Shown here in pieces: positions 723 to 31,644 of a stretch of DNA of 64,000 nucleotides (the first letter of the stretch is position 1; each line of letters begins with the position of its first letter). The DNA lies in contig JAJTWZ010000017.1 of NCBI GenBank assembly GCA_021463145.1, positions 1-64,000 of the forward strand, written 5' to 3'. The notes beneath the pieces were generated by a model, which saw nothing but the letters and a program-made list of their open reading frames with translations, did not search any database and was not told the DNA's origin. Source of the stretch: Blastocatellia bacterium. Its GTDB lineage: Bacteria > Acidobacteriota > Blastocatellia > UBA7656 > JADIYM01. The position numbers were made by a program, and so were the translations under genes.

Positions 723-1568
723 CTACCCGACGAACTCGGCTTCGACGCGGTCAGGAATCAGGCCCGCCTCGAATGCCCGATCGAGCAGCAGTTGCACCGC
801 GCGGCGTCCGTCCGCACCGTAGTCTAGCGTCACGTCGTTCACGTACATCCCGACGAAACGGTCAGCGAGGTCCGTCGGCAGGTCGCGCGCGAACTGCATC
901 GCGTAGCCGAGCGCCTCCTCGCGATTTTCGAGCGCGTACTTGATCGACTCGTGGAGCAGCCGCGAGACCTTCGCGGTAAGTTCGGGCCCGAGGTCCTTGC
1001 GGATCGCATTGCCGCCGAGCGGCAGCTGCAGGCCTGTTTCCGCGTGCCACCATTCGCCGAGGTCGAGCACCTTGTGCAGGCCCTCGCCCGCGTACGTGAG
1101 CTGGCCTTCGTGGATGAGGAGCCCGGCGTCGACGTCGCCCGCCTTCACGCGATCGATTATCGTGTCGAAATCCATCTCGACCGGCTCGAAGTCCGGCGCC
1201 GCGAGCATCATCGCCAGATACGCCGTCGTTAGCTTGCCCGGAATGCCGATGCGCTTCCCGCGCAGGTCTTCGATCGTGAGCGACTCGCGCGCGACGACGA
1301 TCGGGCCGTACTTGTTGCCCATCGAAGCGCCGTGCGGCAGGAGCGCGTATTTGTCGGCGAGCAGCGCGTAGGCGTGGATCGATACGGCCGAGACTTCGTG
1401 GCGGCCCTCCATGGCCCAGTGGTTGAGCGTCTCGATGTCCTTGAGCAGGTGCTTGAACTCGAGGCCTTCGGCGTCGATCTTGTGCTCGGCGAGGGCGTAG
1501 TGCATGAACGCGTCGTCCGAGTCGGGACTGTGCGCCACCGTGATGGTTCGTGTGTCGGTCGTGTTCAT
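723..1568 (-). CDS. mqnD: 1,4-dihydroxy-6-naphthoate synthase
   Basis: The 281-residue product has the MqnD pattern: [14 protein letters not shown] near residue 13, SVSIHAYA, the GPIVVA strand, and the [11 protein letters not shown] loop, all in a periplasmic-binding-protein-like fold. MqnD converts cyclic dehypoxanthinylfutalosine to 1,4-dihydroxy-6-naphthoate in the futalosine route to menaquinone, in the cytoplasm. The chosen ATG overlaps the mqnE stop codon by 4 bp (ATGA), indicating translational coupling. A longer reading frame upstream is only the antisense-frame shadow of mqnE. MqnA, MqnB and MqnC are not in this window. Confidence 0.93.
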
Positions 1569-2701
1569 AGATTCGCTTCCGAGGATGCTGCCGCACCGTC
1601 GGGAATGGGATGGATCGGGTTGTAGAGCGTGTCGCGCTCGACGGGCTCGAGGCCGGCGTCGCGGATCATGCGGACGAGCTCGACACGCGAGAGCGTGGCT
1701 TCGTCCTTGCCGTCGGCCGAGTAGGTCGAGACGAGCTCGCCGCCCTCGATTATCGTGCCGTCGAGGTCGTTGGCGCCGTAATGGAGCGCGATCTGAGCAA
1801 GGCTGCGGCCGAGCATCACCCAGTACGCCTTGATGTGATCGAAGTTGTCGAGCATGAGCCGCGACACGGCGATCGTCCGCAGACTGTCGATGCCCGACGG
1901 TCCAGGCAGGTGCGCGAGCTCGGTCTCCTTCGGCCAGAAGGCGAGCGGAATGAAGCACTGGAAGCCACCAGTGCGGTCCTGCAGGTCGCGAAGCCGGATC
2001 ATGTGGTCGACGCGGTGCTCGGGCCGCTCGATGTGGCCGTAGAGCATGGTTGCGTTGGAGCGCAGCCCGGCGTTGTGAACCTTCTCTGTGACGGCCAGCC
2101 AGGTATTCGACCCGCACTTGTGGCGGCAGACCTCCTTGCGCACCGTCTCGTCGAAGATCTCGGCGCCGCCGCCCGGACAACTGTCGAGGCCGGCGGTCTT
2201 TAGCCGCTCGATGATCTCCTCGTGCGAGACGTGGAACATGCGCTTCAAGTGGTCGATCTCGACCATCGTGAAGGCCTTGAGGTGAACGTGCGGCAGTTCG
2301 CGCTTGAGCGTGCGCAGCAGATCTTCGTAGTACTCGATCGGAAGCTTTGGATGGAGCCCCCCGACGATGTGCAGTTCGGTCGCGCCCTGAGCTGCCGCGG
2401 CGCGCGCCCGCGCGAGGCAATCGTCGATCGAATGCGTGTAGGCCTCGGGCGAGTCCTTCTTGCGGTAGAAGCTGCAGAAGGTGCAGTCCCAATAACAGAC
2501 GTTCGTGTAGTTGAGGTGACGGTTGACGTTGAAGTACGTCGCGCTGCCGTGCCGGCGGCGCCGGACGTCGTCGGCCAACCGGCCAAGGCCGACCAGATCG
2601 CCGGTTTCGAAAAGCCGAACGCCCTCGTCAAAACTCAACCGCTCCCCTGCGTCGACCTTGCCGGCGACATCTGCGAGAAACGGATCACGGAACGCGTTCA
2701 A
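1565..2701 (-). CDS. mqnE: Aminodeoxyfutalosine synthase (radical SAM)
   Basis: This 378-residue protein carries the radical-SAM triad C69-x3-C73-x2-C76, preceded by [12 protein letters not shown]. It then has [18 protein letters not shown] and CPGGGAEIF, which fit MqnE better than its relative MqnC. MqnE joins 3-[(1-carboxyvinyl)oxy]benzoate to SAM-derived adenosyl radical to give 6-amino-6-deoxyfutalosine, the entry step after MqnA. It is the first gene of the mqnE-mqnD-yqeY unit, divergent from the bacilliredoxin gene. The 154-bp gap to that gene should hold both promoters. Confidence 0.92.
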
Positions 2702-2855
2702 TGGCTGGTCTCCTTCGTCGCGCCCGCTGCCGCGCCGGCGCTGCCTGCAAAATCCGTGTGAACCTTAGCACAAGTGGCATGCCTTGTCGTCGTGGCGACC
2801 ACTGTGGAACAATCCCAAGTCCGACACTTGTCATTCACGGAGGAACGTACGCCAC

Positions 2856-3272
2856 ATGGCCTACTCAGAACTGATGATTCGACCGTTTCGCGAGGAATTG
2901 ACGCGAATCGGAGTTGAAGAAACGCGGACGCCCGATGCTGTCGAGGCCGCACTCGCGACCGACGGAACCGTGATGGTCGTCGTGAATTCGGTCTGCGGGT
3001 GTGCGGCCGGCAACGCCCGTCCTGGAATCGCAAAGGCGCTACGGAACGCGACGCTGCCGAGCAAAGTGGTTACGGTATTCGCGGGCGCCGACATCGAAGC
3101 GACGGAGCGGGCGCGCAGTTACTTCGCGCCGTTTCCGCCGTCTTCACCGCAGATCGCCATCATGAAGGACAAGAAGGTGCTGTTCATGCTCGAGCGCCAT
3201 CAGATCCAGAATCGCACCGCCGACCAGGTCGCGTCGGATCTGACCGCCGCGTTCAACGAGCACTGTGCGTAG
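2856..3272 (+). CDS. BrxA/BrxB (YphP/YqiW) family bacilliredoxin
   Basis: The 138-residue protein has the family signature SVCGCAAG with a CGC active site at residues 47-49, followed by ARPGI and the VFAGADIEATERAR stretch. Bacilliredoxins remove bacillithiol from mixed disulfides in Firmicutes. In Gram-negative bacteria that lack bacillithiol, members probably act on other low-molecular-weight thiols or as disulfide isomerases; that part is inference. The ATG at 2856 is chosen because GGAGG lies 10 bp upstream; an in-frame ATG further upstream lacks this. The stop codon is followed after 4 bp by a dispersed inverted repeat. Confidence 0.9.
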   Translation: MAYSELMIRPFREELTRIGVEETRTPDAVEAALATDGTVMVVVNSVCGCAAGNARPGIAKALRNATLPSKVVTVFAGADIEATERARSYFAPFPPSSPQIAIMKDKKVLFMLERHQIQNRTADQVASDLTAAFNEHCA

Positions 3273-3275
3273 AGC

Positions 3276-3366
3276 GAAGAGTTGACAGGATTACAGGATT
3301 ACAGGATTCACAAGATTCAAAGAATCTATGAAAATCCTGTTAATCCTGTAATCCTGTCAACTCTTC
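3276..3366. repeat. ACAGGATT inverted-repeat element between convergent genes
   Basis: Left arm 3276-3308 (GAAGAGTTGACAGG then ACAGGATT words) and right arm 3333-3366 (AATCCTGT words then CAACTCTTC) are near-perfect reverse complements around a ~24-bp centre. The element fills the whole gap between two convergent genes. Its right tip abuts the stop codon of the pseudokinase gene and its left tip is 3 bp past the bacilliredoxin stop. It may act as a bidirectional terminator, although no clear U tract is present. Confidence 0.8.
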
Positions 3367-5482
3367 ATCCGCTCAACGGCACGACACCCCAGTTCCAGAC
3401 GGTTCGGCGATATTTCGACCAGGGAATGTCGCCCCACTCGCACGGTCCGGCGACGATGCACATGAGGTCGCCAGCGTCCGTACCGACGACGATCTCGAGC
3501 CAGCCATCGAGGTCGATGTCTCCGACGACCGCCGGCCCGGGCCTGCCAGACACGTCGCGCTCGTCGATGAGGTTGCCGTCGCCGTCGAATACGAGCAGCT
3601 TGTCCTGGGATCCGGTCAGGATCTCGAGTTTCCCGTCGCCGTTCAGGTCCACCACGACGGGTTCCGCCACCCATTGTCCCTGGATCTCGACTTCCCAACG
3701 CTTCTGACCGCGATCGTCGAGGCAGAGTAACGACCCGTGCTGCGCGCGGACTGCGACGAGGATCTCGTAGCGGCCGTCGCCGTCGATGTCCGCGCCGACC
3801 GGTGCCGATGCCCCGAAGCCCCACGGCGGAATCGTCATCGAGTCGTCGCCGAGAACGATCTCGGTTTCCCACGCGAACTCCTCCTCGCGCGTGAACGCCA
3901 ACAGATGAAAGGAGTACTGTGTCGCGGCCTCGCGCCGCGCCATGTATCGCGGCCGCACGATCAGCCAGGAATCGCTGGATCGCGGCAGCACGAGCGGCAT
4001 TTCGTCGCCATCGACCGCGCGCCATCTGCCGCGTTGGTTGAAGATGATGAACGGACCCGGCCGCGGCAGGTCGCGAGCGCCGCTCTCCGCGGTCGGATCG
4101 CCGTTTGGACCGGCTGGCGGTTCGAGCGGGATGAGGTGGCCGTCCTTCCGGAAGTTCCCGCGCCCGTCGATCTGCGAATCGAGCGACAGCAGAAACTCCG
4201 GTTCGCCGTCGCGGTTCAGGTCGCCGACCGCCGGGGCCGGCCAACGGGGGGGACTGCTGCCAGAAAACGCCGGAGCGGACCACAGAAGTGTTCCGTCCTC
4301 GCTGGAAAACGCGTAAAGCGTGCCCTTCTTGTCCATCGAGAGCACTTCGGCGCTGCCCTCGGATGAAAACTCGATGGAGGACGGGGGCATCAGCATCTGC
4401 CGGATGACGCCGGCGTCGGTCTTGAGCGCGCGCCGCCATCGCAATTCGCCCGTCGCGGTGTAGCAATAGACCCATCCGGTCTCGTAACCGGCGATGATCT
4501 CGTAGTGGTGATCGCGGTCGATGTCGACGAGCAACGGCGAGCCGACCACTCCAGCCGGCGCTTCGACGCGCCAGAGCAACTCGCCGAGCACACCCGTGCC
4601 TCCGCGCGTGCGTCCCGCCCGGCGATAGGCGCGATCCAGGCCGTCGGCGAGCGCGACCGGCGTTGGCCAGAGCGCTTCGGCGCCGCGAGCAAGTGCGTAC
4701 CGCAGCGCGGATTCCAGTTCGTGCGGCGTCGACTTCGGCAGCGGCGGCAGGTTCTGGTTGCCGCTGGTGACGAATAGGTGAAGCGGGCCAGGCGCCTCGG
4801 CCGGGGGGAAGAGCCGCGCGCCGGAGAGCATCTCCCACGCCAGGGCGCCAAGCGCGTGGATGTCGGAAGCGATGCCCGAGATTGGCGCGATAGCCGCCTG
4901 GTTGGGAGTCGCGATCTCGCCGACTCCAAAGTCGACGAGGACTCCGCGTTCCTGCGCTCCCTCGCTGACGACCCAGACGGATTCGGGCGACAGAATGCCG
5001 TGGACGACCCCGCGTTCGTGGAGCACCTGAAGACCGCGCGCAACGTCGGCAACCAGCGAGAGCACGCGCGTCGGCTCCATCGTGCCTTGCAGATCGAGCA
5101 ACGAACGCAGCGGGACCCCGGCCGGGCGGGTCGTGATCAGGCAGACGGTGCCGTCAGCGGCGCCGGCATATCCGGATACCGTGACCATATGAGGTTGCTG
5201 CAGCGCCGAGAAGTTCCGGTAAATCCGCGAGAGCCGGTCCATCTGGCCGAGAGGCTCGTCCCAGTCGACCCGGAAGATGTGCACGAGCGTCGTCGTCTTG
5301 TCGGCCGGGCTCTGGGCCTCGAAGAGCGACCGCATCGGATGAGACGCGAGCAGCCGGTTCAGTTGCAGGTGGCCGAGCCCCGACTCGGACGGCAGCGTCG
5401 GCAGCAACTGGCTTTGGCACGTCGGACACGCTGAAGTATCCGACGCGACGACGGGACCACACGTGAGGCAAAACCGCGTCAT
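3365..5482 (-). CDS. Zinc-ribbon pseudokinase fused to FG-GAP/VCBS propeller
   Basis: This 705-residue protein starts with a zinc ribbon (C5, C8, C19, C22), followed by a Hanks-kinase-like domain at about 45-290. The kinase is probably inactive. There is no glycine loop or VAIK lysine, and the catalytic HRDLKPEN loop reads HGILSPES (161-168), without the Asp; the DFG is kept (184-186). Residues ~310-705 hold repeated D-x-D/N-G-D-G calcium loops (for example DLNRDGEPE, DIDGDGRYE, DLNGDGKLE, DIDLDGWLE) typical of FG-GAP/VCBS beta-propellers. No signal peptide or membrane segment is apparent. A sensing or scaffold role is possible but not shown. Confidence 0.85.
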   Translation of the reverse strand: MTRFCLTCGPVVASDTSACPTCQSQLLPTLPSESGLGHLQLNRLLASHPMRSLFEAQSPADKTTTLVHIFRVDWDEPLGQMDRLSRIYRNFSALQQPHMVTVSGYAGAADGTVCLITTRPAGVPLRSLLDLQGTMEPTRVLSLVADVARGLQVLHERGVVHGILSPESVWVVSEGAQERGVLVDFGVGEIATPNQAAIAPISGIASDIHALGALAWEMLSGARLFPPAEAPGPLHLFVTSGNQNLPPLPKSTPHELESALRYALARGAEALWPTPVALADGLDRAYRRAGRTRGGTGVLGELLWRVEAPAGVVGSPLLVDIDRDHHYEIIAGYETGWVYCYTATGELRWRRALKTDAGVIRQMLMPPSSIEFSSEGSAEVLSMDKKGTLYAFSSEDGTLLWSAPAFSGSSPPRWPAPAVGDLNRDGEPEFLLSLDSQIDGRGNFRKDGHLIPLEPPAGPNGDPTAESGARDLPRPGPFIIFNQRGRWRAVDGDEMPLVLPRSSDSWLIVRPRYMARREAATQYSFHLLAFTREEEFAWETEIVLGDDSMTIPPWGFGASAPVGADIDGDGRYEILVAVRAQHGSLLCLDDRGQKRWEVEIQGQWVAEPVVVDLNGDGKLEILTGSQDKLLVFDGDGNLIDERDVSGRPGPAVVGDIDLDGWLEIVVGTDAGDLMCIVAGPCEWGDIPWSKYRRTVWNWGVVPLSG

Positions 5483-5554
5483 TGAGTTGCTCCGGAAAGT
5501 TCAGGAGGGGCGCAGAGACAACGGTTTATAGCCGTTCGGCGCCCGGCGGCGCAA

Positions 5555-5640
5555 CCGAAGAGGACCACGGATCACAGAGATCGGAACGGAATCCACAGAT
5601 CCGAACCCGGCAGGCCGGATCCGTGGAATCCGGCAAAATC
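5555..5640. repeat. Degenerate ATCCACAGATCCG-type intergenic repeat
   Basis: The gap downstream of the permease contains CACGGATCACAGAGATC and ATCCACAGATCCG words and an imperfect inverted pair CCGGATCCGTGG / CCACAGATCCG. These resemble the CACAGATG/CATCTGTG element at 35852-35910 and the ATCTGTGG word at 23861. It looks like a decayed member of that family. Confidence 0.4.
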
Positions 5641-7252
5641 AGTGGCCGTCCTTTTCGTCGTCCAGGCGGCCATCGACGGGTTCCTCTGGAAACATCGGAG
5701 GGGCCATGGGATCGATCGTGGGCGAGCCGGCCGGAGAAACTCCGTGAGACTGTATTTCGTGAGCGAGCTGGCCTCGAAGGTGGCTGTGCTTCTTTCCGTA
5801 AAAGAAGTAGATCGCGATTCCCACGGCGAGCCAGATGATGAGCCGGTACCAGTTCTCCACCGGCAGCGAGAACATCAACAGCATGCAGATTGCGATGCCG
5901 GCGATCGGAACGAAGGGGCTCAGCGGCACCCGGAACGGACGGTGCGCGTCAGGGTGCGTCTTGCGCATCACTAGCACCGCCGCGCAAACGATGACGAAGG
6001 CGAGAAGCGTTCCGATGTTCACGAGCTCGGCAAGTATGCGGAGGGGAAGGAACGCCGACATGATGCCGACGGCGCAGCCGGTCAGAATCGTAGACTTCCA
6101 GGGCGTCCTGAACTTGTCGTGGATCGCGCCGAAGAACGACTGCGGAACGAGGCCGTCGCGAGCCATTGCAAGCATGACGCGAGGCTGGCTGAGCATCATC
6201 ACGAGCAGCACCGACGTGATGCCGGTCAGTGCGCCGAGCGAGATGACGAACTGCGCCCAAGGCAGGCCTTTCGCCTCGAAGGCCTTCGACACAGGCGCGT
6301 TGATGTCGATCTGATTGTACGGAACCATTCCCGTCAGCACCGCGGAGACCAGGATATAGAGGAGGGTGCAGACGATCAGGCTGACGATGATGCCGATCGG
6401 CACATCGCGCTGCGGATTGCGCGCCTCCTCGGAGTGTGTCGAAACCGAGTCGAAGCCGATGTAGGCGAAAAAGATTGTCGCGGCGCCGGCCATCATGCCC
6501 AGCGGCGCTCCACCGGCGTCGGTCATTCCCGCGATCGAATGGCCAAAGAAGCTGAGGCCCGTGTAGCCATACGGTGCGAAGTCACGCGTCCAGTTCGCCG
6601 GATCGATGTAGAAGGCCCCGACGATGATGACGAAGAACACGACCGCCAGCTTCACTATGACCATCGCCGCGTTGATGGACGCGCTTTCCTGGATGCCTTT
6701 CACGAGGACGACCGTCAGCACGAACGTGATGACGAGCGCCGGAAGGTTCATGAAAGTGTCCGTCGCTACGAGATGGCCCAGTTTCGGATCGTAGTCGAAC
6801 GGCGCGTTAGCGAGAACTTCCGGAATCTTGAACCCGAAGAGACCTATGAAGTCCTGGAAGTAGTGGGACCACCCGTTCGCGACGGTCGCCGAACCGACGG
6901 CGTATTCGAGGACCAGATCCCAGCCGATGATCCACGCGAAGAGCTCGCCGAGCGTTGCATACGCGTAGGTGTAGGCGGAGCCGGCGACGGGCACCATCGC
7001 GGCGAACTCGGCGTAGCAGAGTGCCGCGAAAATGCAGGCTATGCCGGCGACGACGAACGAGAGCATCAGCGCGGGGCCGGTCTTGTCGTGGGCTGCGACG
7101 CCCGTCAGGACGAAGATGCCCGTGCCGATGATCGCACCGACGCCGAGGCTGGTGAGCTGGACCGGGCCAAGGATGCGACGCAGGCGATGTTCGCCCTTCA
7201 GCTCACCCAACAGGACATCGAGCGGCTTCTTCGAAAAGAGCTGATTCGGCAT
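5639..7252 (-). CDS. APC-family amino-acid permease
   Basis: The 537-residue integral membrane protein has the start typical of cationic amino-acid transporter-like APC permeases: GVGAIIGTGIF in TM1 (about residues 36-46), AALCYAEFAAMVPVAGSAYTYAY around 75-100, and FFAYIGFDSVSTHSEEARNPQRD near 265, followed by about 12 membrane spans in total and a hydrophilic tail. Substrate is probably an amino acid taken up with protons; which one cannot be told. GGAGG lies 5 bp upstream of the ATG. It is monocistronic by orientation. Confidence 0.92.
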   Translation of the reverse strand: MPNQLFSKKPLDVLLGELKGEHRLRRILGPVQLTSLGVGAIIGTGIFVLTGVAAHDKTGPALMLSFVVAGIACIFAALCYAEFAAMVPVAGSAYTYAYATLGELFAWIIGWDLVLEYAVGSATVANGWSHYFQDFIGLFGFKIPEVLANAPFDYDPKLGHLVATDTFMNLPALVITFVLTVVLVKGIQESASINAAMVIVKLAVVFFVIIVGAFYIDPANWTRDFAPYGYTGLSFFGHSIAGMTDAGGAPLGMMAGAATIFFAYIGFDSVSTHSEEARNPQRDVPIGIIVSLIVCTLLYILVSAVLTGMVPYNQIDINAPVSKAFEAKGLPWAQFVISLGALTGITSVLLVMMLSQPRVMLAMARDGLVPQSFFGAIHDKFRTPWKSTILTGCAVGIMSAFLPLRILAELVNIGTLLAFVIVCAAVLVMRKTHPDAHRPFRVPLSPFVPIAGIAICMLLMFSLPVENWYRLIIWLAVGIAIYFFYGKKHSHLRGQLAHEIQSHGVSPAGSPTIDPMAPPMFPEEPVDGRLDDEKDGH

Positions 7253-19172: not shown

Positions 19173-22100
19173 CTATTTCGCATCCCAGTTCCCAACGATT
19201 GGCCTTGCGTTCGGAGGACCATAGATGAAGACGACATCGGCGTTCCCAGGCGAGTTGACGTTTCGAAGGAACCAGGCGCCAGTCGCCGGCACGTAGATCC
19301 CGACCGTGTCCGTGCCGTCGCCCTGCCAGTCACCGGTGACCGGAGTCGCTCCTGATGGACCGTAGCTGAACGCCAGGTCCGCAGCACCGGACGAATTACT
19401 GTTCCGCAAGAAGAACGTCGCTGTTCCAGTCGAGTAAAGGCCAATCGTATCGACGCCGTCACCGTTCCAATCGCCAACGACCGGCACCATACCAGCGCCT
19501 CCAACGTCAAAGGAAAAGACGACATCGGCAGGTCCATTCGAGTTCTCGTTGCGGAGAAAGAACACGCCCGTGCCGACGACGTAGAGCCCGATCGTGTCGA
19601 TGCCGTCGCCATTCCAATCGCCAGCAAGTCCAAGCACGCCGGCCCCACCCGCTCCGAAGGTGAACACGAGATCCGCTACGCCATTCCCGTTCGTGTTTCG
19701 AAGGAAATATGCTCCGGATGTCGGATCGTAGATGCCGGCCGAATCGTCGCCGTCACCGTCCCAGTCACCAACCACAGGCGCAAATGCCCCGCCCGGTCCG
19801 TACGAGAACGTCACATCGGCAACACCGGGCGAGTTAGAATTCCGCAGGAACCAGGCACCGGACGATCCGATGTAGACGGCAGGCGTCGTGGACCCGCGTG
19901 TATTGCCCGTCCGGAATCTCATCACGAAGACATTGAAGTCGTCCGCTCGCCCGAATCCGCCGCCGAGAAATGCCGTCGTTGAAGACTCGCCAGTAATCAC
20001 GACCGATCCGTCCGGATCGAAACACGCTCCCGTTCCTTGATCGGGGCCAACCGTACCAAGAAACGTCCCGTAAATCCGTGTGCTGAGATCGGCGCTCAAT
20101 AGCATGAAGAAGCCGTCTGTACCCTGGATTGAGTCCGGCGACGCGTCGAGCACGGAATCGAAGGCGTCCTGCGAGATCGGGAATCCGGAAGAACTCGTAT
20201 AGCCGACGACGGCCACTCGACCGATTTGATCGGTATCCATACCGATGAGCTCGTCGAGTCCGGTGTCGCCGACGAATGTCGACGCAAGAAGTGCGGTACC
20301 TGTCGAATTCAGCTTCGAAACGAATCCGTCGCGCGGACTGGCGTCCGTGGACACACCAAAGGACTCATCGAACGCACCTGGCGTAGTCGGAAAGTCAGTG
20401 GAGTACGTATAGCCAGCGGCGTAGATCGCGCCCTGCGAGTCAACGGAAAGCGATACGAGAACGTCGTGAAGGCAGCCCCCGAGAAACGTCGAAAACACGA
20501 GTGACGAGCAGTCAGCATTGAACTTCGAGACGAACCCGTCCAGAAAAGAAGAGATGCATATGCTTTGATCATATGCCCCCGGCGTAACGGGGAAGCCTTC
20601 CGAAGAGGTGTTCCCTCCCACGAGGATCTCGGCACCCGCATACTGGACCGAATTGACAATCTCGCCCGCAGCGCCACCGATGAACGTCGATCGAATCAAG
20701 CCAGTTCCGTCCTTCGAGAACAGGGAGAGGAAGCCATCGCCGAAGCCTCCAGCGTACGAGGTGTCGTAAGCCCCAACCGTCGTTGGATACTCTGGAGACA
20801 TCGTTCGACCGACGACGGCGAGAGTTCCGTCGGGAGCGATGGCGGTGTCCGTGACGAACTCTTCGCCGGCCCCGCCGAAATACGTTCCGAAGACGAGCGA
20901 TGACCCAGTGGGGCTGAGCTGGGCGAGGATTCCATCGGAGCCGCCTGCATACGTGTCCGAGTAAGCTCCCGGCGTGGTCGGAAAGTCGGACGAACTTGAG
21001 ATCGCTGCAATGACGACGGTTCCGTCTGCCGCGACTTCGACGGATGCAAGTTCTTCGCCGTCGGAGCCACCCAGATACGTTGAATACTGCAATGCACTGC
21101 CATCGGACGTGAGTTTCGTCACGAAGAGATCGTTCGGAGAATTCACTCCATTCGGAAATGTCGTGTCATAGGCGCCCGGTGTGGTCGGAAACGAGGCGAT
21201 AGAACAGAACCCGGCCAGGAAGATCGAGTGCCCGGCGTCAACCTGGATCTCTTCCGAATGTTCCGCGCCATAAGGAAACGAAGAGCGCGTACCGCTGAGA
21301 AACGTCGAGTACTCGATCGACGTTGCATCCGCGTCAAGTCGGAGCAGGAAGCCGTCAACCTGACCTCCGAAGTTTGGGTGGACAGCGGAAGCGGTCGTGG
21401 CAAAGTCCGTCGAAAGCGTCATCCCGCAGACGCTCAGCTGCCCGGTTGGACGAACGTCACAGCTCGAAACCCAGTCCGAGGCCGAACCGCCGACATACGA
21501 GGCATACTCGAGGGTCGCGCCGTCGGATGCGAGCTTGGCGACAAGCCCGTCGACTGGCCCTCCAATCTCCGTATCGAGCGAGTTTGAAGGAAAGGGGAAT
21601 ACCGTTGACTGGCACTTCCCGACAACGTACACATTGCCGATCGAATCAGCGGCCATGTCCGTGATCACGTCGGCTGCGTTGCCTCCGATGATTGCCGAGT
21701 AGGTGAGTTCCTCGCCGTCTGGATCAAGCCGGCACGCGAAAATCTCGTACTCCGTCGCCGCGGGTGAAACATAGGATCCGGGCACCGCGGGAAAGCCCGC
21801 GAGTCCGTCCACCTGCCCCGCGGCGATGCAGGACCCGTCGCTCGTCACGGCAACGGTATCGATCGCCTGGTTGCCGGTCCCCCCGAGGAAGGTGGAGTAG
21901 ATCAGCGAAGATCCTGACGCATTCACTCGAGAAATGAACCCATTCACGCTTCCTCCCGGCACCGTCTGAAAGCTCCCAGGCGTCACCGGAAAGCTGGTGA
22001 CGGATTCTGTAAAACCACCGACGAACGCTTCTCCATTGCGCACTGCGACGCTCATTCCCGCGTCTTGGTGGGTACCCCCAAGGAACGTCGCGTAGGAAAG

Positions 22101-23558
22101 AGCCGAACACACCGGATTCAGCTTCATCAGGAACGCATCGGACGAGACACCATCATTGAACGTCGGATCGAACGCCGAGGGTGTGCTTGGAAAGTCCGGA
22201 GACTCAGTAGACCCTGCTGCGTAGATCGAACCATCGGAATCAAGCGCAACGGCTTCAATGACGTCATTGAGTTCGCCACCCAGAAACGTCGATCCCAGGA
22301 GCCCGGTGCCGGTGGGATTCAGTCGGGTGACGAACGCATCGCAGCTCCCATTGAGATGCGGGACGGTGTCGAAAGCCGTCGGCGTCGTCGGAAAGTCTGG
22401 CGAGGTCGTCTTGCCAACTACCACGACACCCCCGTCCGGCCGGACGGCAATGTCCGTCGGGACATCGATAGCAGATCCATCGAGATAGGTCGAAAACAGC
22501 AGATCCGAACCGGACGCACTGATCTTCATGATGAAGATGGCGCGACTCTCGTATTGCGAGCTTCCAGGAAAAATCGTTGAGAACGCGCCCGGAGTCGTTG
22601 GGAAGTCCCAGGCATTGGTGATTCCACAAATGGCGGTGTTTCCACTGCCATCGAGTGCGACAGCGACCGCCTCGTCATAGCTGTCGGAACCCCCGAGAAA
22701 ACGGGACCATTCGATAGCTGGATCGATGACGAGCGGCTGCGAACGATCGTACTCTCCGATCGCGAATCGGACCGCTCCGTCGCTGTCGATCCTGTAGGTC
22801 GCTGACACCGGGCGCTTTTCGCCAGCTGTCGACTGGAAGACAGAAGGGCGCACATGTCGAAGCTCCCCGCAGCCCGTTTTCAGGACCAGATCGCCGTCCG
22901 GCGTGACCTCGATCGAATCGTGCCCTTCGAACCGGACCCGCACGGCCGATGCGTCTACGCCTGGCCGAACGACGACGTCGTACTCGAGTCGTTCTTGCGT
23001 TCCGTAAAAGACCGCGTCGATTCCTTCGTAGATGCTCTCGAATCTGACCCGCGAATATGTGGGAACGTCGTGATGCCACTTCTCAGGGTCGTTACCGCGC
23101 AGATAGTTCATGACACCCGGAAGCTCGTTCTCCGCAACGGCCCGGGCGACAGGGCTGGCGCCATCGAAGCGCATCCGAATGGCGTTGACCCCCGCTGATT
23201 CCGTTTGCCGCGATGCACGATCCAGACTCTTGGAGAACGGTGACGACAAGGCTTCCTGGGCCAACGGCCGTGAGGTTGGAAGCGACAGCATTGCCCCGGT
23301 ATCGGTCAGAAAGACGCCGTAGCTGCGATTTCTCGTCACGAATCGCGCTCTCGAATCGGCCTGTCCGACGTTCGGCTCGAAACTCATCGGTCTGGCCGGA
23401 GCGAGTTCCGCAACCGTTGATGCTGATTGATCGGCGCCAGAGCTGGTAACTGTGGTGGCTTCCGAGACGCGAGCCGATGTCGGGAGAGTCCCGAACAAGA
23501 GAAGGCAAAGACAGCACATTGCAAGCCCTGCTTGAGCGGATCGCAGTCGGAACGTCAT
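19173..23558 (-). CDS. Giant secreted SBBP beta-propeller protein
   Basis: This 1461-residue protein has a signal peptide. A conserved N-terminal module (about 55-290; SFEPNVGQADSRARFVTRN and later NDPEKWHHDVPTYSRVRFESIYEGID) typically precedes SBBP repeats. About 17 SBBP repeats follow, recurring as YSTFLGG...D..A.D..G..Y..G.T.S..FP.TPGAF. The last ~230 residues hold five repeats of GDWDGDG.D..GIY....G.FFLRN.NS.G.AD..F..G, ending in GNWDAK. It is presumably an extracellular or surface protein; the ligand is unknown. The ATG at 23558 is used rather than a TTG 18 bp upstream. Confidence 0.88.
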   Translation of the reverse strand: MTFRLRSAQAGLAMCCLCLLLFGTLPTSARVSEATTVTSSGADQSASTVAELAPARPMSFEPNVGQADSRARFVTRNRSYGVFLTDTGAMLSLPTSRPLAQEALSSPFSKSLDRASRQTESAGVNAIRMRFDGASPVARAVAENELPGVMNYLRGNDPEKWHHDVPTYSRVRFESIYEGIDAVFYGTQERLEYDVVVRPGVDASAVRVRFEGHDSIEVTPDGDLVLKTGCGELRHVRPSVFQSTAGEKRPVSATYRIDSDGAVRFAIGEYDRSQPLVIDPAIEWSRFLGGSDSYDEAVAVALDGSGNTAICGITNAWDFPTTPGAFSTIFPGSSQYESRAIFIMKISASGSDLLFSTYLDGSAIDVPTDIAVRPDGGVVVVGKTTSPDFPTTPTAFDTVPHLNGSCDAFVTRLNPTGTGLLGSTFLGGELNDVIEAVALDSDGSIYAAGSTESPDFPSTPSAFDPTFNDGVSSDAFLMKLNPVCSALSYATFLGGTHQDAGMSVAVRNGEAFVGGFTESVTSFPVTPGSFQTVPGGSVNGFISRVNASGSSLIYSTFLGGTGNQAIDTVAVTSDGSCIAAGQVDGLAGFPAVPGSYVSPAATEYEIFACRLDPDGEELTYSAIIGGNAADVITDMAADSIGNVYVVGKCQSTVFPFPSNSLDTEIGGPVDGLVAKLASDGATLEYASYVGGSASDWVSSCDVRPTGQLSVCGMTLSTDFATTASAVHPNFGGQVDGFLLRLDADATSIEYSTFLSGTRSSFPYGAEHSEEIQVDAGHSIFLAGFCSIASFPTTPGAYDTTFPNGVNSPNDLFVTKLTSDGSALQYSTYLGGSDGEELASVEVAADGTVVIAAISSSSDFPTTPGAYSDTYAGGSDGILAQLSPTGSSLVFGTYFGGAGEEFVTDTAIAPDGTLAVVGRTMSPEYPTTVGAYDTSYAGGFGDGFLSLFSKDGTGLIRSTFIGGAAGEIVNSVQYAGAEILVGGNTSSEGFPVTPGAYDQSICISSFLDGFVSKFNADCSSLVFSTFLGGCLHDVLVSLSVDSQGAIYAAGYTYSTDFPTTPGAFDESFGVSTDASPRDGFVSKLNSTGTALLASTFVGDTGLDELIGMDTDQIGRVAVVGYTSSSGFPISQDAFDSVLDASPDSIQGTDGFFMLLSADLSTRIYGTFLGTVGPDQGTGACFDPDGSVVITGESSTTAFLGGGFGRADDFNVFVMRFRTGNTRGSTTPAVYIGSSGAWFLRNSNSPGVADVTFSYGPGGAFAPVVGDWDGDGDDSAGIYDPTSGAYFLRNTNGNGVADLVFTFGAGGAGVLGLAGDWNGDGIDTIGLYVVGTGVFFLRNENSNGPADVVFSFDVGGAGMVPVVGDWNGDGVDTIGLYSTGTATFFLRNSNSSGAADLAFSYGPSGATPVTGDWQGDGTDTVGIYVPATGAWFLRNVNSPGNADVVFIYGPPNARPIVGNWDAK

Positions 23559-23576
23559 CGTGGTTCTCTCAACCAA

Positions 23577-25427: not shown

Positions 25428-25747
25428 CTGGCAATCTGCATCCGCGACCGTGGCGCGGTCGACAGCGTGACACCGGCGGCGACCGGGTTCGCGACCGCTC
25501 CGCGGTCGCAGACTCCGCCGTAGAACAAGAAGCGACGTTCCGTGGTCGTGGAGCGGTCGGACTCCGGCACTTCAGTCGTGAAGCGTATGGGCGTGTCTGA
25601 CGGGGCGCCGATTCGGGCGGGAAGCGGTGAAACCGATGGAAACCATTGTCAGACAATGCGATGTGGGTTGGAGCCGGCCGGTGACGACCCGTCAGCTATC
25701 AGGAAAATACGGCTTGTGATGCGGGATTTTCGTGGCACAATCTCGTC
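25428..25747. other. Intergenic region with palindromic GACCGC repeats
   Basis: There is no gene. At 25445-25461 and 25491-25509 are palindromes of the CGACCGCGGAGCGGTCG type, and a third variant (GTGGTCGTGGAGCGGTC) lies near 25540; the same palindrome occurs at 7691-7707. At 25701-25738 is the operator-like sequence described separately. The left edge of the accessory island falls in this stretch. Confidence 0.6.
25701..25738 (+). promoter_or_regulatory. Operator-like imperfect palindrome before the DUF4143 ATPase
   Basis: GGAAAATACGGC and GCGGGATTTTCG are imperfect inverted arms (9 of 12 positions) separated by 7 bases and followed by TGGCAC. The 37-base sequence recurs with a single mismatch at 29179-29215 near the start of the second Fic gene. 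Its position 10 bp before the GTG start of the ATPase fits an operator or promoter element. The same bases can also be read as codons, so a coding remnant is an alternative. Confidence 0.5.
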
Positions 25748-26896
25748 GTGAAGATCGCACGCGCCGCATTGGTGGAGACAATTCGAGCAGCGCTCGAGCG
25801 CAACCCCGTGGCCGTGCTCATCGGGCCCCGGCAGTGCGGCAAGACGACCCTCGCGCGCGAGTTCCTGTCAGAGAACTCAACCAACTATTTCGATCTAGAG
25901 GACCCGCTGAGCCTTGCTCGTCTCGACGAGCCTAAAACCGCCCTCGAGCCGCTGCAGGGACTGGTGGTGATCGACGAAGTCCAGCGCCGGCCCGATCTTT
26001 TTCCGTTGCTGCGGGTGCTCGCGGATCGTCGCGAGCGTCCGGCGCACTTCCTGATTCTTGGCAGTGCTTCAGGCGATCTGTTGCGCCAGAGTTCGGAGAG
26101 CCTGGCCGGTCGCATGGAGCGAATCGAGATCGGCGGATTCACGCTGGCGGAGCTCGGGGAGCAGTCGGCGGCGAAGCTGTGGCGGCGCGGCGGCTTCCCG
26201 CTCGCGTATCTCGCGCGCTCTGAGACGGACAGCGTCGGCTGGCGAAGGCAGTTCATTCGGACGCTGCTCGAGCGCGACCTTCCGCAGTGGGGCACGCGTG
26301 TCCCGGCGACGGCGCTACTGCGTTTCTGGACCATGGTCGCGCACCATCACGGTCAGATCTGGAACGCTGCCGAGCCTGCGCGCGCGATGGGCGTCAACCC
26401 ATCGACGAGCCGTCGCTACCTCGACCTGCTCACCGACGCGCTCGTGGTCCGCCAGCTTCAACCCTGGTATGCCAACCTCGGAAAACGCCAGGTCAAGTCG
26501 CCGAAGGTGTACGTGCGCGACAGCGGGCTGCTGCACCAGCTCCTTGGTCTCGAAACCGAGAGGGCGCTGCTGTCGCATCCGAAGGTCGGCGCGTCGTGGG
26601 AGGGCTTCGCGATCGAGCAGGTGCTTGCCGCGGTGCCGCACGACGAGGTCTTCTTCTGGGCGACGCATCAGGGTGCGGAGATCGACCTCCTTCTCCGCCG
26701 TGGAGACCGGATGGTTGGAGTCGAGTGCAAACGCGCCGACGCGGCGCGCGTGACGCCGTCCATCCGGATCGCGCTGGAGGACCTGAATCTGGAGCGGGTC
26801 GTGGTGATCTATCCGGGGTCGAAGCGCTTCCGTCTGACGGATCGGGTGGAGGTCATTCCGCTCGAAGCGCTTGCGGAATCGGCGTCGCCATTCTGA
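25748..26896 (+). CDS. AAA ATPase with DUF4143 domain
   Basis: The 382-residue protein has Walker A GPRQCGKTT (26-34), Walker B VVIDEVQ (73-79), then LILGSASG as sensor. A C-terminal DUF4143 part has GAEIDLLLRR...GVECKRA (about 310-330), which resembles a PD-(D/E)xK nuclease core. This family is widespread, mobile and of unclear function; it is often found among toxin-antitoxin and defence genes, as here. The start is GTG. A copy of its last 38 codons lies at 31448-31562. The gene end overlaps the opposing frame at 26853-27656 by 44 bp. Confidence 0.88.
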   Translation: MKIARAALVETIRAALERNPVAVLIGPRQCGKTTLAREFLSENSTNYFDLEDPLSLARLDEPKTALEPLQGLVVIDEVQRRPDLFPLLRVLADRRERPAHFLILGSASGDLLRQSSESLAGRMERIEIGGFTLAELGEQSAAKLWRRGGFPLAYLARSETDSVGWRRQFIRTLLERDLPQWGTRVPATALLRFWTMVAHHHGQIWNAAEPARAMGVNPSTSRRYLDLLTDALVVRQLQPWYANLGKRQVKSPKVYVRDSGLLHQLLGLETERALLSHPKVGASWEGFAIEQVLAAVPHDEVFFWATHQGAEIDLLLRRGDRMVGVECKRADAARVTPSIRIALEDLNLERVVVIYPGSKRFRLTDRVEVIPLEALAESASPF

Positions 26897-27656
26897 GAAA
26901 GAGGCCTCCTGACGACCGTGCGCTCGTCGTCCGTCGCCGAACGGCTCGAGTTCCTGCGGTTGCAGTTGCCCCGGATAACGCGCGGATACCGCCCCCTGCG
27001 ACGACACGGTGATCCCTCCGCGCCGTCCACGCGGTCGCAAAGGACGCGTACGTTCGCCGGGCGAGATCGGCGGGCTTCGCCTTCGGATCGGCCTCGAGCG
27101 CGGCCCAGACGTCCGCCCGGTACGACGGCCCGATGATGACGCGCCAGCGATAGGCGTCGTGCCGCGCGGCCAACTCGTCCGGGGTCATCACGTCGGCGAC
27201 ACGGTCCCGCAGCGTGCCCGCCGGAACGACGACCGGACCGGCCGCGAATCGGGTATCCGCTCCCTTCCGCCGCAGTTGAGTATCGTTCCCGACCCGGAGC
27301 AGCTCCAGTCGCGGTCCGGTGTACGCGACGGCAAGTCGCCGGAATCGACGGTCGGCCGGTCGCCCGGCGGCTACGCTGCTCCAGTAGGCCCGCACGCGCG
27401 GCGACGCGCCAGCCACGATCTTCGTCAGCCGGTCGACGTTGACGTACGGAGCGTGGATGCCGATCCAGGTGGTCAGGACGGAGAGGACGCGGAGATCTCC
27501 ACGGTCCATGCCCTCGACCGACGTCGCCAGGATGGTGTCCTCGATGTTCGGCGACGGCAGCGGGGTGCCTCCGAACAGCATTCCGATTCCGATCATTGCG
27601 GCCGTCAGGTCGGAACGGGCCGGAATCGCCGGCTCGGTGCTACGACGAAAGGCCAT
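26853..27656 (-). CDS. Hypothetical protein of a nucleotidyltransferase-linked family
   Basis: This 267-residue frame looks genuine over its first ~215 residues: [47 protein letters not shown], and [20 protein letters not shown]...[13 protein letters not shown]...[13 protein letters not shown] recall such proteins as partners of DUF6036-type nucleotidyltransferases, but no function is known to me. The final ~50 residues are Arg/Thr-rich and run antisense into the ATPase gene, so the natural end was probably lost. Upstream, with a 17-bp overlap, is the remnant of the partner gene. Confidence 0.55.
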
Positions 27657-27750
27657 CGCGCAGCGCCCTGTCGATCACGATGGCACGCAGCCGCAGCCCG
27701 CGCACCGCGAGGTACTCGTCGAACTGCATGACGATCGTCCGTGGATCCAT
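27640..27750 (-). pseudogene. Remnant of a DUF6036-like nucleotidyltransferase/antitoxin gene
   Basis: Only 36 codons remain. The start [21 protein letters not shown] and the following AIVI match, from memory, the N-terminus of nucleotidyltransferase-like proteins that go on with a GGAAL motif; here the sequence diverges right at that point and stops. It overlaps the next gene by 17 bp, as intact pairs often do. Loss of the catalytic GG...D-x-D part makes it non-functional. Confidence 0.5.
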
Positions 27751-27751
27751 G

Positions 27752-27772
27752 AGTATCGCTATAACAGATACT
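27752..27772 (-). promoter_or_regulatory. AGTATC-N9-GATACT inverted repeat
   Basis: A perfect 6-bp inverted repeat with a 9-base AT-rich centre lies immediately before the ATG of the remnant at 27750. The centre reads TGTTATAGC on the minus strand, so the site overlaps a possible -10 region. Autoregulated antitoxin promoters have this build. Confidence 0.45.
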
Positions 27773-27780
27773 TTCGTCGA

Positions 27781-27830
27781 TTCCGATTTCGCCGCCAACA
27801 CCGCGCGATCGGTACGAAACTTGCAGTTCC
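27781..27830. repeat. Copied upstream segment, copy 1
   Basis: TTCCGATTTC at 27781 and CCGCGCGATCGGTACGAAAC plus TTGCAGTTCC at 27801-27830 recur at 31605-31644 (one mismatch in 30, with a 10-bp deletion between the two parts). Here it lies between the divergent antitoxin remnant and Fic genes. Confidence 0.65.
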
Positions 27831-27979
27831 ATAATATGGCTGCGAACTCTGCGAACCCTCCGCGTCCTCTGCGAGAAGCCCCGTCGTGCAAACGACCCCC
27901 TCCGGGCGTACACTGCTTCCGTCCCGAACGCGCGCCCGCCCGGGCACTCCTTGAACCGACGTTCACATCTGCTCTTGCC

Positions 27980-29029
27980 ATGTCTTTCGCCCCGCGATTC
28001 ACGATCACAAACCCGATCACCGCCGCGCTCACGGCGATCGAACGAGCACGGGGGTTTCTCGAAGCGGCACAGCTCTCCAACGCCTGGATCGAGCGCATGA
28101 GCCAGCGGGCGCTTCTGCTCGAAGCGCACCACACCACGCACATCGAGGGGACGCAGCTTACCCTCGACGAGGCGGCGCGCCTGTGGGCTGGCGAGCACGT
28201 GCCAGGCGCTGACCGCGACGACGTGCGCGAACTGCTCAACTACCGCGACGCCTTCAACCTCGTGGCGGAGTACCTCGAGAGCGGCGACCCAATCACCGAG
28301 GCCCTGATCCGCGAGATCCACCGGCGCCTGGTGAGCGGCGTGCGTGGCAGTTCCGCGCAACCCGGGCAGTACCGCTTGATCCAGAACTACGTCGCCAACA
28401 GCCGGACGCGCGAGATCATCTACACGCCGCCGGCACCCGAGCAAGTCCCGCCGTTGATGCGCGAGCTTGTGGACTGGCTTTGCGAGGACACGGCCGTCCA
28501 TCCCGTGCTCGTCGCTGGCATCGCGCAGTTCCAGCTCGTGCACGTTCATCCCTTCGTGGACGGCAACGGCCGAACCTCGCGGCTGCTCTCGACGCTGTGT
28601 CTGTATCGGTCGGGCTACGACTTCAAGCGGCTCTTCACGTTGAGCGAGTTCTACGATCGCGATCGTCTCGCGTTCTACCGAGCCCTTCAGCTCGTGCGCG
28701 AGCACGACCTGGATTTGACTGGGTGGCTGGAGTACTTCGTCGAAGGGCTTGCGACACAGATGGCCGAGGTCCGGCAGCGCGGAGTGCGCGTGATCCGTCG
28801 CGATGTCGCCGTTCGCGAGTTCGGGCTGAACGCGCGACAGGCGATGGTAATCGACCTGCTCGCGGAGGGGGGCTCGCTCGGCATTGACGAGGCCACGGTC
28901 GGGCTTCCGGACATTCCCCGGCGAACCCTCCAGCGCGACCTTCAGCTTCTCGTCGAGAAGGGCATTGCCGTGGCCGACGGAACCGCTCGGGCGAGGCGAT
29001 ATCGCCTTCAGGACAAAGACTTCCGCTGA
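27980..29029 (+). CDS. Fic-family adenylyltransferase, self-inhibited class II
   Basis: The 349-residue protein has the complete Fic core H190[11 protein letters not shown]201 and the inhibitory-helix motif T52-T-H-I-E56-G57 N-terminal to it. It is therefore a class II Fic whose own glutamate should block ATP until relieved. A C-terminal winged-helix part (about 270-345, [16 protein letters not shown]) follows. Fic enzymes usually transfer AMP to a hydroxyl of a target protein. The ATG at 27980 is chosen because it starts the conserved N-terminal helix; the open frame upstream crosses the repeat region. Confidence 0.88.
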
Positions 29030-29144
29030 ATCGCGCCAGAATCGCGCCACGAATCGCGCCAAGCGCGCGCCATAGATCGCGCCGCCTCGCTTTGAGTTCG
29101 GTCTCGCGGCGGCGAATTCGCTCGAGACCATTTCGATCGACGAG

Positions 29145-30077
29145 ATGGCCTCGGATGAGGGCGACCCCCGACATACCGGGAAAATACGGCTCGTGATGCG
29201 GGATTTTCGTGGCACGTGGTTCTTCTCGGCGCCGATGTCGGATGCGTTCCTCGTGCTCGCGGTCGCGGACGGCGGCCTGACGTGCTTCCTCCTCGCGCGC
29301 TTCATGCGGCTGGCGTGTGGCATGCACGAGGTGCTGATGTCGCATCCCCGCGGTCTCGGGAAGACGCCGGGCGAAGTGCGGCGCTCGAAGGTATGGATCG
29401 GCGGCACGCGGCCGGGCAGTGCGGTGTTCGTGCCGCCCCCGGCAGGCGCCCTCGCGGACTGTCTCACGCACTTCGAACGGTTCCTGAACGACGTGCCCGA
29501 GCCGACGCCTCCGCTCATCAAGGCGGCACTCGCACACGTCCAGTTCGAGACGATCCATCCGTTCTTGGACGGAAACGGTCGCCTCGGTCGGCTGCTCAGC
29601 GTGCTGCAGCTGGTCGCGGACGGAGTGCTGCGCGCGCCGATGCTCTACCCGAGCCTGTTCTTCAAGACGCACCGCGCGTTGTACTACGACCTGCTCGACG
29701 GCGTGCGCCGCCGTGGCGACTGGGAGCGCTGGCTGGATTTCTTCGCCGAGGGCGTGCGGATCAGCGCCACACAGGCAGCGGCGACGGCGAATGCGCTTCT
29801 GGCGCTCGTGACCGCCGATCGTGAGCGCATCGCGGGGCTTGGCCGGGCCGCGCCGTCTGCACACGCGGTGCATCGGGCCATGCAGCGGCAGCCGCTGGCG
29901 ACCTCGGCGACCCTCGTGAAGGCGACGCGGCTGACTCCCGCGACCGTGAACAAGTCGCTCGCCCATCTGGAGCGCCTCGGCATCGTCACCGAGTTGACGA
30001 ACCGGCGACGTGATCGCGTGTTCGGTTATCGACGGTATGTGGACGAGCTGACGGCGGAGCTGGCGGGCACGCCGTGA
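29145..30077 (+). CDS. N-terminally truncated Fic-family protein
   Basis: From about residue 55 the 310-residue frame matches Fic proteins: MHEVLMSHPRG.GKTPGEVRR, WIGGTRPG.AVFVPPP, core H138-PFLDGNGRLG-R149, and a C-terminal winged helix (about 245-300). The usual first ~90 residues, with the inhibitory (S/T)xxxE(G/N) helix, are missing. In their place is a stretch encoded by the 37-base sequence copied from upstream of the ATPase (residues ~13-24). The true start could be this ATG or an internal one at codon 31 or 60. It is either a de-repressed Fic or a decaying gene. Confidence 0.6.
   Translation: MASDEGDPRHTGKIRLVMRDFRGTWFFSAPMSDAFLVLAVADGGLTCFLLARFMRLACGMHEVLMSHPRGLGKTPGEVRRSKVWIGGTRPGSAVFVPPPAGALADCLTHFERFLNDVPEPTPPLIKAALAHVQFETIHPFLDGNGRLGRLLSVLQLVADGVLRAPMLYPSLFFKTHRALYYDLLDGVRRRGDWERWLDFFAEGVRISATQAAATANALLALVTADRERIAGLGRAAPSAHAVHRAMQRQPLATSATLVKATRLTPATVNKSLAHLERLGIVTELTNRRRDRVFGYRRYVDELTAELAGTP
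29178..29215 (+). promoter_or_regulatory. Second copy of the operator-like palindrome
   Basis: This differs from 25701-25738 by one base in 37 (TCGTGAT in place of TTGTGAT). It falls at the junction where the Fic homology has lost its N-terminus, so it either drives a shortened Fic from an internal ATG or marks a recombination joint. Confidence 0.5.
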
Positions 30078-30114
30078 GCCAGTCCTCGACCGCCTGCGCC
30101 CGTGTCACGCGCCA

Positions 30115-30159
30115 GCGCGAAGCGCCTTGGAGTGCGGCGTGAAGCGCCGCTTTGGATCG
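30115..30159 (+). repeat. GCGAAGCGCCTTGGAGTGC dispersed repeat (single)
   Basis: The repeat has GCGCGAAGCGCCTTGGAGTG, CGGCGTGAAGCGCCGC and TTTGGATCG. Related copies are at 31755-31803, 31821-31841 (inverted), 41675-41715 and 41809-41851 (inverted). The gap 30078-30348 around it has no gene. Confidence 0.8.
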
Positions 30160-30348
30160 TTCGAAAGCACCGCTCCGTAACTCACTGTAGAGCGCTTCGC
30201 GCGATCAGCCGTTCGTTGCGCTCTGCTGGACAATGCCATCGCTGGCAAGCGATTCGCCGTTCCGCCTACACTGCCCGGGTGACTGCGTCGCGCTGGCGAA
30301 GCTGCCGGGTGCCCGACGCCGTTCGATCCGGAGGCCGATTCGAACCAA

Positions 30349-31389: not shown

Positions 31390-31447
31390 TGAGTGCGTGC
31401 GGCTTGTCCAAAGGCTAGAGCTCGTGGACTTCGCCGGCATCGCCGGT

Positions 31448-31562
31448 GGACCTGAATCTGGAGCGGGTCGTGGTGATCTACCCCGGGACGAGGCGCTTCA
31501 GTCTGACGGATCGGGTGGAGGTCGTTCCGCTCGAAGCGCTTGCAGGATCGGAGCTCTTCTGA
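31448..31562 (+). pseudogene. 3' remnant of a second DUF4143 ATPase gene
   Basis: Reading from 31449, the frame gives DLNLERVVVIYPGTRRFSLT and DRVEVVPLEALAG, then SELF and a stop. It matches the last 38 codons of the ATPase gene ending at 26896 with only a few substitutions. Nothing upstream matches the rest of the gene, so only the tail is left next to rhuM. Confidence 0.85.
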
Positions 31563-31604
31563 GTGGCTTGGCGATCGATCAGTTCGAAGGCTGCCCGCGA
31601 GACC

Positions 31605-31644
31605 ATTCCGATTTCCGCGCGATCGGTACGAAACTTGCAATTCC
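31605..31644. repeat. Copied upstream segment, copy 2
   Basis: CCGCGCGATCGGTACGAAAC plus TTGCAATTCC, preceded by TTCCGATTTC, corresponds to 27781-27830. It is followed by an AT-rich stretch TTATATACAT, unlike the surrounding GC-rich DNA, that could hold a promoter. Confidence 0.6.

Follow-up and report, generated by a model that had tools for sequence, protein, structure and literature searches.

What might a protein kinase fold do once it has lost nearly all of its catalytic residues and been joined to a beta-propeller of a usually exported type? The question is raised by a gene near the beginning of the 64,000-nucleotide stretch analysed here (the window), which comprises positions 1 to 64,000 of contig JAJTWZ010000017.1 from the Blastocatellia bacterium assembly GCA_021463145.1. 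A minus-strand open reading frame (ORF) with an ATG start encodes a 705-residue protein in which a putative zinc-ribbon motif, a kinase-like domain, and an FG-GAP/VCBS propeller follow one another. We favour, with moderate confidence, the explanation that this is a cytoplasmic, catalytically dead relative of the zinc-ribbon Ser/Thr kinases encoded in the same genome, fused to a VCBS/FG-GAP propeller and acting as an adaptor.

3365..5482, minus strand: whole gene, 705 codons plus stop, encoding zinc ribbon, pseudokinase and FG-GAP propeller (ORF and codon score)

Two separate alignments were used to evaluate the kinase half: the first sets it beside nine kinases, drawn from the window and named contigs, eight of which cover the N-lobe, and the second consists of 72 kinase-like ORFs from the same genome. 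In the first, all nine comparison kinases keep the catalytic loop HRD-x-K-x-x-N, and the studied protein reads H161-G-I163-L-S165-P-E-S168, such that the Asp is replaced by Ile163, the Lys by Ser165, and the Asn by Ser168. The LGxGGMG of the comparison kinases corresponds to L45-A-S-H-P-M-R51 (in the stretch LASHPMRS) with all three glycines of GxGxxG gone, VAIK has become T65-L-V-H68 with His68 in place of the beta3 Lys, the alphaC Glu is Ile87, the APE Glu is gone, and the activation segment is shorter by about 20 residues. Asp184 of the DFG motif is the sole survivor among the glycine loop, beta3 Lys, alphaC Glu, HRD Asp, catalytic Asn, and DFG Asp; the alphaF Asp (D207) is also kept. The 72-row alignment agrees, with A, H and R in the glycine loop, Lys to His, alphaC Glu to Ile, Asp to Ile, Asn to Ser, and DFG kept. 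The positions concerned are:

5315..5350, minus strand: degenerate glycine loop, residues 45-56 (LASHPMRSLFEA); both alignments
5279..5290, minus strand: beta3 VAIK position, residues 65-68 (TLVH); both alignments
4979..5002, minus strand: catalytic loop HGILSPES, residues 161-168; both alignments
4925..4933, minus strand: DFG, residues 184-186; both alignments
4862..4933, minus strand: shortened activation segment, residues 184-207; first alignment, with residues 190-199 below 50 in predicted local distance difference test (pLDDT) in the AlphaFold2 model

An initial annotation of this DNA had listed the catalytic Asp, the glycine loop, and the ATP-anchoring Lys as missing and DFG as kept, all of which is borne out by both alignments; the list was incomplete, since it left out the loss of the alphaC Glu, of the catalytic-loop Lys and Asn, of the APE Glu, and of a portion of the activation segment. 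It had further proposed that active-site residues restored in aligned homologues would speak against a pseudokinase. Such residues are indeed intact in the aligned paralogs and distant kinases, but these are not orthologs, and their intact residues indicate that the studied protein lost the residues and that the alignment did not slip.

The fold itself appears to be retained. An AlphaFold2 model of residues 1-295, built from a 10-row alignment, has a pLDDT of 79.9 and a predicted template modelling score (pTM) of 0.79; most blocks of the kinase C-lobe reach 82-97, with 42-73 in the activation segment and 53-71 around residues 221-240. Foldseek places PknB first (E 4.5e-16, template modelling score 0.64 by query) and also matches PknA, and the nearest Protein Data Bank (PDB) sequences to the kinase half by phmmer are PknB chains (7.7e-12). 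Pfam matches to the whole protein are FG-GAP_3 (4.9e-19; 69.1 bits, cut-off 26.9), FG-GAP (2.3e-15; 56.5 bits, cut-off 22.1), PQQ_2 (2.8e-9), PK_Tyr_Ser-Thr (5.8e-7, above its own cut-off), and Pkinase (9e-7; 29.0 bits, below the 31.7 cut-off). Among NCBIfam models, the MAD6 defence kinase NF047741 matches best (E 2.3e-12, residues 61-200 only); we rejected it as an assignment because its 46.3 bits stand against an equivalog cut-off of 460 bits and represent generic kinase similarity. Of the six features listed above that characterize an active Hanks-type Ser/Thr protein kinase, only DFG Asp184 remains, and the protein corresponds to bacterial pseudokinases in general, having a kinase fold from which the canonical catalytic residues are missing. 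Judged from the alignments and the model, the losses appear to remove both the grip on the nucleotide and catalysis, with the predicted fold retained.

4619..5371, minus strand: kinase-like domain, residues 38-288; Pfam, PDB phmmer, AlphaFold2, Foldseek
5417..5470, minus strand: zinc-ribbon motif, residues 5-22 (C5, C8, C19, C22); sequence, with a like motif in kinases of the same genome

The zinc ribbon proposed previously stands as a cysteine pattern, of the form CxxC-x10-CPTC, and is weak in Pfam (DZR_2, E 0.03). A like motif precedes the kinase in 18 of the 72 kinase-like ORFs, the studied one included, with exactly the same 18-residue spacing in 17 of them. The stretch CLTCGPVVASDTSACPTC, directly before the kinase domain, fits the pattern CxxC-x10-C-x2-[CDG] and is a putative zinc motif.

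The C-terminal half is an FG-GAP/VCBS propeller, as had been predicted, with repeated blades and DxDxDG-type loops recognizable by Pfam, by the loops themselves, and in the fold model. Five loops, beginning at residues 320, 421, 565, 612, and 655, fit D-x-[DN]-x-D-[GH]-x-x-E:

3389..4585, minus strand: FG-GAP/VCBS beta-propeller, residues 300-698, seven blades by sequence reading; Pfam, AlphaFold2, Foldseek, VIA-align 2
4499..4525, minus strand: metal-loop-like DIDRDHHYE, residues 320-328; sequence, alignment
4196..4222, minus strand: metal loop DLNRDGEPE, residues 421-429; sequence, alignment
3764..3790, minus strand: metal loop DIDGDGRYE, residues 565-573; sequence, alignment
3623..3649, minus strand: metal loop DLNGDGKLE, residues 612-620; sequence, alignment
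3494..3520, minus strand: metal loop DIDLDGWLE, residues 655-663; sequence, alignment

This half was modelled separately from the kinase half, and the AlphaFold2 model of residues 290-705 from a 19-row alignment (pLDDT 71.0, pTM 0.75) is poor at about residues 465-505 and at the C-terminus. Foldseek matches it first to BamB (5.8e-13) and, lower, to BBS9, BBSome, and KICSTOR chains, and VIA-align 2 gives Z scores of 28.4 for the designed Cake8, 25.4 for Bap1, and 25.3 for a KICSTOR chain, with WD40 and BamB propellers also at 24-26. Because so many propellers tie, the structural match fixes the fold and not the family, and assignment to FG-GAP/VCBS rests on Pfam and the five loops. The BBS9/BBS and KICSTOR proteins form cytosolic complexes. 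The propellers of the integrin-alpha type and those of Bap1, BBS9, and KICSTOR share their DxDxDG loops with the studied propeller, which differs from them in being fused to a pseudokinase and in having no recognizable export signal. Elsewhere in the window, FG-GAP- or SBBP-like proteins are encoded at 39952-41628 (plus strand) and 19173-23576 (minus strand), each having by eye an N-terminal hydrophobic signal-like stretch that the studied gene does not have.

A location in the cytoplasm is supported. Location was judged from hydropathy in 19-residue windows, and no membrane span is present, the maximum over the whole protein being 1.35 at residues 196-214, within the predicted kinase C-lobe. 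The N-terminus is the zinc ribbon and not a signal peptide, and a basic linker (RRAGRTRGG) of about 13 residues joins the kinase to the propeller. By comparison, a span above 1.7 follows the kinase in 28 of the 72 kinase-like ORFs. The view of the initial annotation that a cytoplasmic pseudokinase is joined to a propeller with no membrane span therefore agrees with the hydropathy, the alignments, and the fold models, and the membrane segment that it had named as a possible refutation is absent by hydropathy; its statement that FG-GAP propellers are normally extracellular is too strong, given that the model also matches BBS9 and KICSTOR chains.

The adaptor explanation draws on the fold being kept despite the losses, on the kept propeller loops, and on a zinc motif shared with active kinases. 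A scaffold role, as suggested in the initial annotation, is plausible: the pseudokinase lobe would bind no ATP and would dock with another protein, most likely either an active kinase, of which the cell has many, or a further copy of itself. The propeller would hold a client or a substrate, and the protein as a whole would recruit or restrain signalling without phosphorylating. A more specific version, which we put forward only tentatively and think rather unlikely as it stands, is that metal- or client-bound states of the propeller of a soluble adaptor switch one of the approximately sixty active kinases through the dead kinase lobe. In this version, an ex-kinase and a calcium-loop propeller whose type is usually exported would have been brought into the cytoplasm together, giving a bacterial counterpart of a propeller scaffold. 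A soluble pseudokinase with a large, well-kept binding domain is a handy object for asking what a dead fold does.

The genome provides ample context. Pfam Pkinase is matched at 73 places, with the studied gene among the weakest. Nine of the 72 kinase-like ORFs, which were taken from fetched stretches and are in some cases cut, are without at least one of the Lys, Asp, Asn, and DFG Asp, and from their sequences six appear to be convincing pseudokinases: the studied protein, L064, L065_+859, L066, L067, and L201. The other three flagged (L180, L190, and L200) are partial or doubtful. The partners of the other pseudokinases include a zinc ribbon and PP2C (L065), a zinc ribbon and two FHA stretches (L066), and a zinc motif alone (L067), these zinc-ribbon matches lying below the Pfam cut-off. 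At L065 (G000:C141), ORF 859-2668 on the plus strand encodes a weak zinc ribbon and a pseudokinase that reads HNGIEPGS and has no DFG, both joined to a PP2C phosphatase, and a further kinase ORF (YRDLKPAN) follows downstream in the same orientation; at L066 (G000:C113), the pseudokinase of ORF 1234-3205 (plus strand) is followed by the weak zinc ribbon and two FHA stretches. The zinc-ribbon Hanks-type kinases L001, L004, and L012 have a like zinc motif before the kinase and are 22-25% identical over the kinase half, and they differ in keeping the catalytic motifs and in their C-terminal parts. Two of the 53 other matches to the whole protein in this genome touch the propeller (on C61 and C138), neither listed as a kinase. 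In a mixed tree the studied protein groups (87/71), on a branch of 3.8, with a pair of active zinc-ribbon kinases encoded in sister genomes; the trees identify no single paralog as its source.

Sister genomes of the class also encode a conserved family of membrane-anchored pseudokinases of about 450-560 amino acids, comprising a kinase-like domain, one hydrophobic span, and a Pro-rich tail, and including L219 (G078:C157), L229, L231, L234, L236, and L248-L277. In the best 30 members read, the HRD Asp is missing from 29, the beta3 Lys from seven, and the span is present in all 30. A threshold of E 1e-50 gives matches in 136 of the 162 genomes of the class; L004 and other intact kinases are counted among them, and the family proper is the near-full-length subset. 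Kinship of the studied protein to this family, considered because HGELSPDS of L229 resembles HGILSPES, finds no support in the mixed tree, and the family keeps the beta3 Lys in 23 of 30. Because the family is conserved, selection on a dead kinase is measurable there, unlike in the orphan studied here.

To identify relatives, the whole protein was compared at 1e-20 with 162 genomes of the class (up to seven best candidates per genome), which returned only the protein itself; the studied genome (G000) is the only member of its family in that list. A weak search at 1e-15 of 396 genomes of the phylum, with the best two candidates per genome, also found no ortholog; the three matches other than the protein itself are to kinases that retain HRD and differ in their C-terminal parts. 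Neither genome contigs nor viral contigs gave matches to the plain protein. The propeller half has generic FG-GAP matches in 41 of 162 class genomes at 1e-4 and in seven of 396 phylum genomes, its own included, at 1e-8, and no kinase fused to a propeller was found by profile in the fetched loci of these matches, L045 having a separate kinase frame. A scan of named genomes with the propeller alignment gave at least 80 loci, three among those listed carrying a kinase in the same ORF by profile. The kinase half at 1e-13 matches 34 of 162 class genomes at 24-34% identity; 19 of 29 ORFs show HRD by pattern, and the rest are transmembrane pseudokinases or were missed by the pattern.

The codon bias and ribosome-binding site of the gene itself fit a living one. 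The synonymous-codon score of ORF 3365-5482 is 0.300, above all five other frames of the stretch and within the range of 0.075-0.425 for 13 in-frame comparison genes of the window; the comparison gene 'Brx', read out of frame (true start 2856), was left out of this range, and its 138 codons are in the codon table.

5490..5493, minus strand: GGAG ribosome-binding-site-like word, 7 nucleotides before the ATG; sequence

Several observations weigh against an adaptor. The DFG Asp is kept, leaving room for metal or nucleotide binding. The best opposite-strand frame scores 0.259 in codon bias, which makes the codon test weak. Upstream on the same strand, a 156-nucleotide gap separates the gene from an amino-acid permease, and the adjoining genes give no hint of signalling. 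The protein has the longest end branch of the 71 kinase domains in the tree of this genome (4.56; L063, ABC1/UbiB-like by reading, was left out), which is as compatible with decay as with a new role, and it receives no supported place in the trees among the zinc-ribbon kinases (60/69 in the tree of this genome, with the bootstrap not settled). Since no ortholog was found in the genomes sampled, purifying selection is not assessable, and decay is the main rival. In that case the ancestor combined a kinase with a propeller, the kinase ceased to have a role and drifted, and the present gene would be a relic that is open for now and nearing a pseudogene. Its presence in this genome alone among the samples searched, the long branch, the loss of about ten canonical positions, and the isolation of the gene are all consistent with this; however, 705 codons are open with ordinary codon bias and a good ribosome-binding site, both domains have predicted folds, five metal loops and the zinc cysteines are kept, and it is mainly catalytic positions that have been lost, a pattern like that of a repurposed pseudokinase. 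We consider such a relic unlikely on balance.

A non-canonical enzyme, whose kinase fold would hold nucleotide by some other mode and use Asp184 to transfer a different group, is quite improbable. The kept DFG Asp is in its favour, as is SelO, which AMPylates and likewise has HG for HR ('Hgvmntdn') in Table 1 of a pseudokinase review (PMC12599244). SelO sequences there retain both the VAIK Lys and the Asn of the catalytic loop, however; the studied protein has His68 and Ser168 at these two positions, which led us to reject a SelO AMPylase, and it has also lost the alphaC Glu, the catalytic Lys, and the three glycines of the glycine loop. The SelO family is absent from Pfam matches up to E 1. 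It is very improbable that the protein is a receptor, with its propeller beyond the cytoplasmic membrane and its kinase half within the cell. The proteins L077, L087, and L116 do look built in this way, but the studied protein has no 19-residue stretch above 1.35, its short basic linker holds no span of the kind that separates kinase and propeller in L077, and its N-terminus is not a signal peptide. Least probable of all is that two genes were joined in error during assembly: the assembly consists of 173 contigs and the architecture was not found in the other genomes sampled, but one uninterrupted frame runs through the junction (which was not searched for repeats) and the ORF as a whole has an ordinary codon score.

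The neighbours are a convergent PF06491 disulphide-isomerase-type gene at 2856-3272 (plus strand) and the upstream permease at 5639-7252 (minus strand); as to a candidate operon of the permease and the pseudokinase gene, promoter- and terminator-like sites between them are no commoner than in shuffles. A near-perfect hairpin at 3276-3366, with a predicted -61 kcal/mol as RNA, touches the stop codon of the pseudokinase gene and is built of AATCCTGT/ACAGGATT units; this two-unit pattern occurs 36 times in the genome, several as facing pairs, and not at all for the reversed control. Further away, 723-2701 (minus strand) contains a CofH/MqnC-type radical SAM gene at 1565-2701 (PF04055, PF19288) followed by an MqnA-like frame recognized by eye, which together point to the futalosine route to menaquinone. 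At 25700-34130, several small genes that by eye resemble mobile or defence genes (AAA/DUF4143, Fic, RhuM, AbiEi-like, and AbiEii-like) form an island-like stretch.

Returning to the adaptor explanation, how does the protein compare with known systems? Kinases joined to propellers have precedents. L077 and L087 from Planctomycetota and L116 on a contig labelled Kuenenia encode, as here, a kinase and an FG-GAP/PQQ-like propeller in one ORF, and the L077 propeller segment is 34% identical to the studied one. They differ in their intact catalytic loops (HRDVKPSN, HRDVKPGN, and HRDIKPGN, respectively) and in a hydrophobic span above 1.6 between the domains, barely so in L077 (1.65); in L077 and L087 PEGA follows the hydrophobic stretch, L116 not having been scanned for it. 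PMC1262709 describes kinase proteins with PQQ and WD repeat propellers, and AfsK of Streptomyces as an active, membrane-associated kinase with C-terminal PQQ repeats. AfsK thus shares with the studied protein a kinase followed by propeller-type repeats, which are PQQ and not FG-GAP; as a family assignment it was rejected, the NF053615 match reaching 22.9 bits (E 2.9e-5, best stretch residues 128-187) against a 1300-bit equivalog cut-off. In a literature search, mostly of non-subscription sources and judged by title and the start of the abstract, no paper was found on a prokaryotic pseudokinase-FG-GAP or kinase-FG-GAP fusion, and the words propeller, zinc, and FG-GAP were not found in the main text of the pseudokinase review. 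The combination was called unusual in the initial annotation, which is too broad in that kinase-propeller proteins and prokaryotic pseudokinases are already known, and holds for the dead, soluble form, not seen elsewhere among the matches listed.

Pseudokinases without all three motifs are described as relatively common in prokaryotes (PMC12599244), and those reviewed (ActPs3/MviN, GLW, CP1, DLHK, DYD, and EssB/YukC) have, as here, a kinase fold with catalytic motifs lost; the kept DFG sets the studied protein apart from them. DLHK was rejected because its HRD Asp and loop Asn are kept (PMC12599244), where this protein has Ile163 and Ser168. CP1 is defined by a linked COG3899 (ATPase) domain (PMC12599244); a general Pfam scan up to E 1 found no AAA/ATPase family, COG3899 itself not being searched. 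GLW has GLW for HRD, and a transmembrane segment follows the kinase in GLW and in many ActPs3 (PMC12599244), compared with HGI and no such segment here. Precedent for scaffolding by such domains comes from MviN and EssB/YukC. The lobe of the MviN pseudokinase forms back-to-back dimers, and phosphorylation of its tail recruits FhaA (PMC12599244). EssB/YukC, which scaffolds the type VII secretion system T7SSb, has a degraded glycine loop and a shortened activation loop (PMC12599244), and both of these features are common to it and the protein described here.

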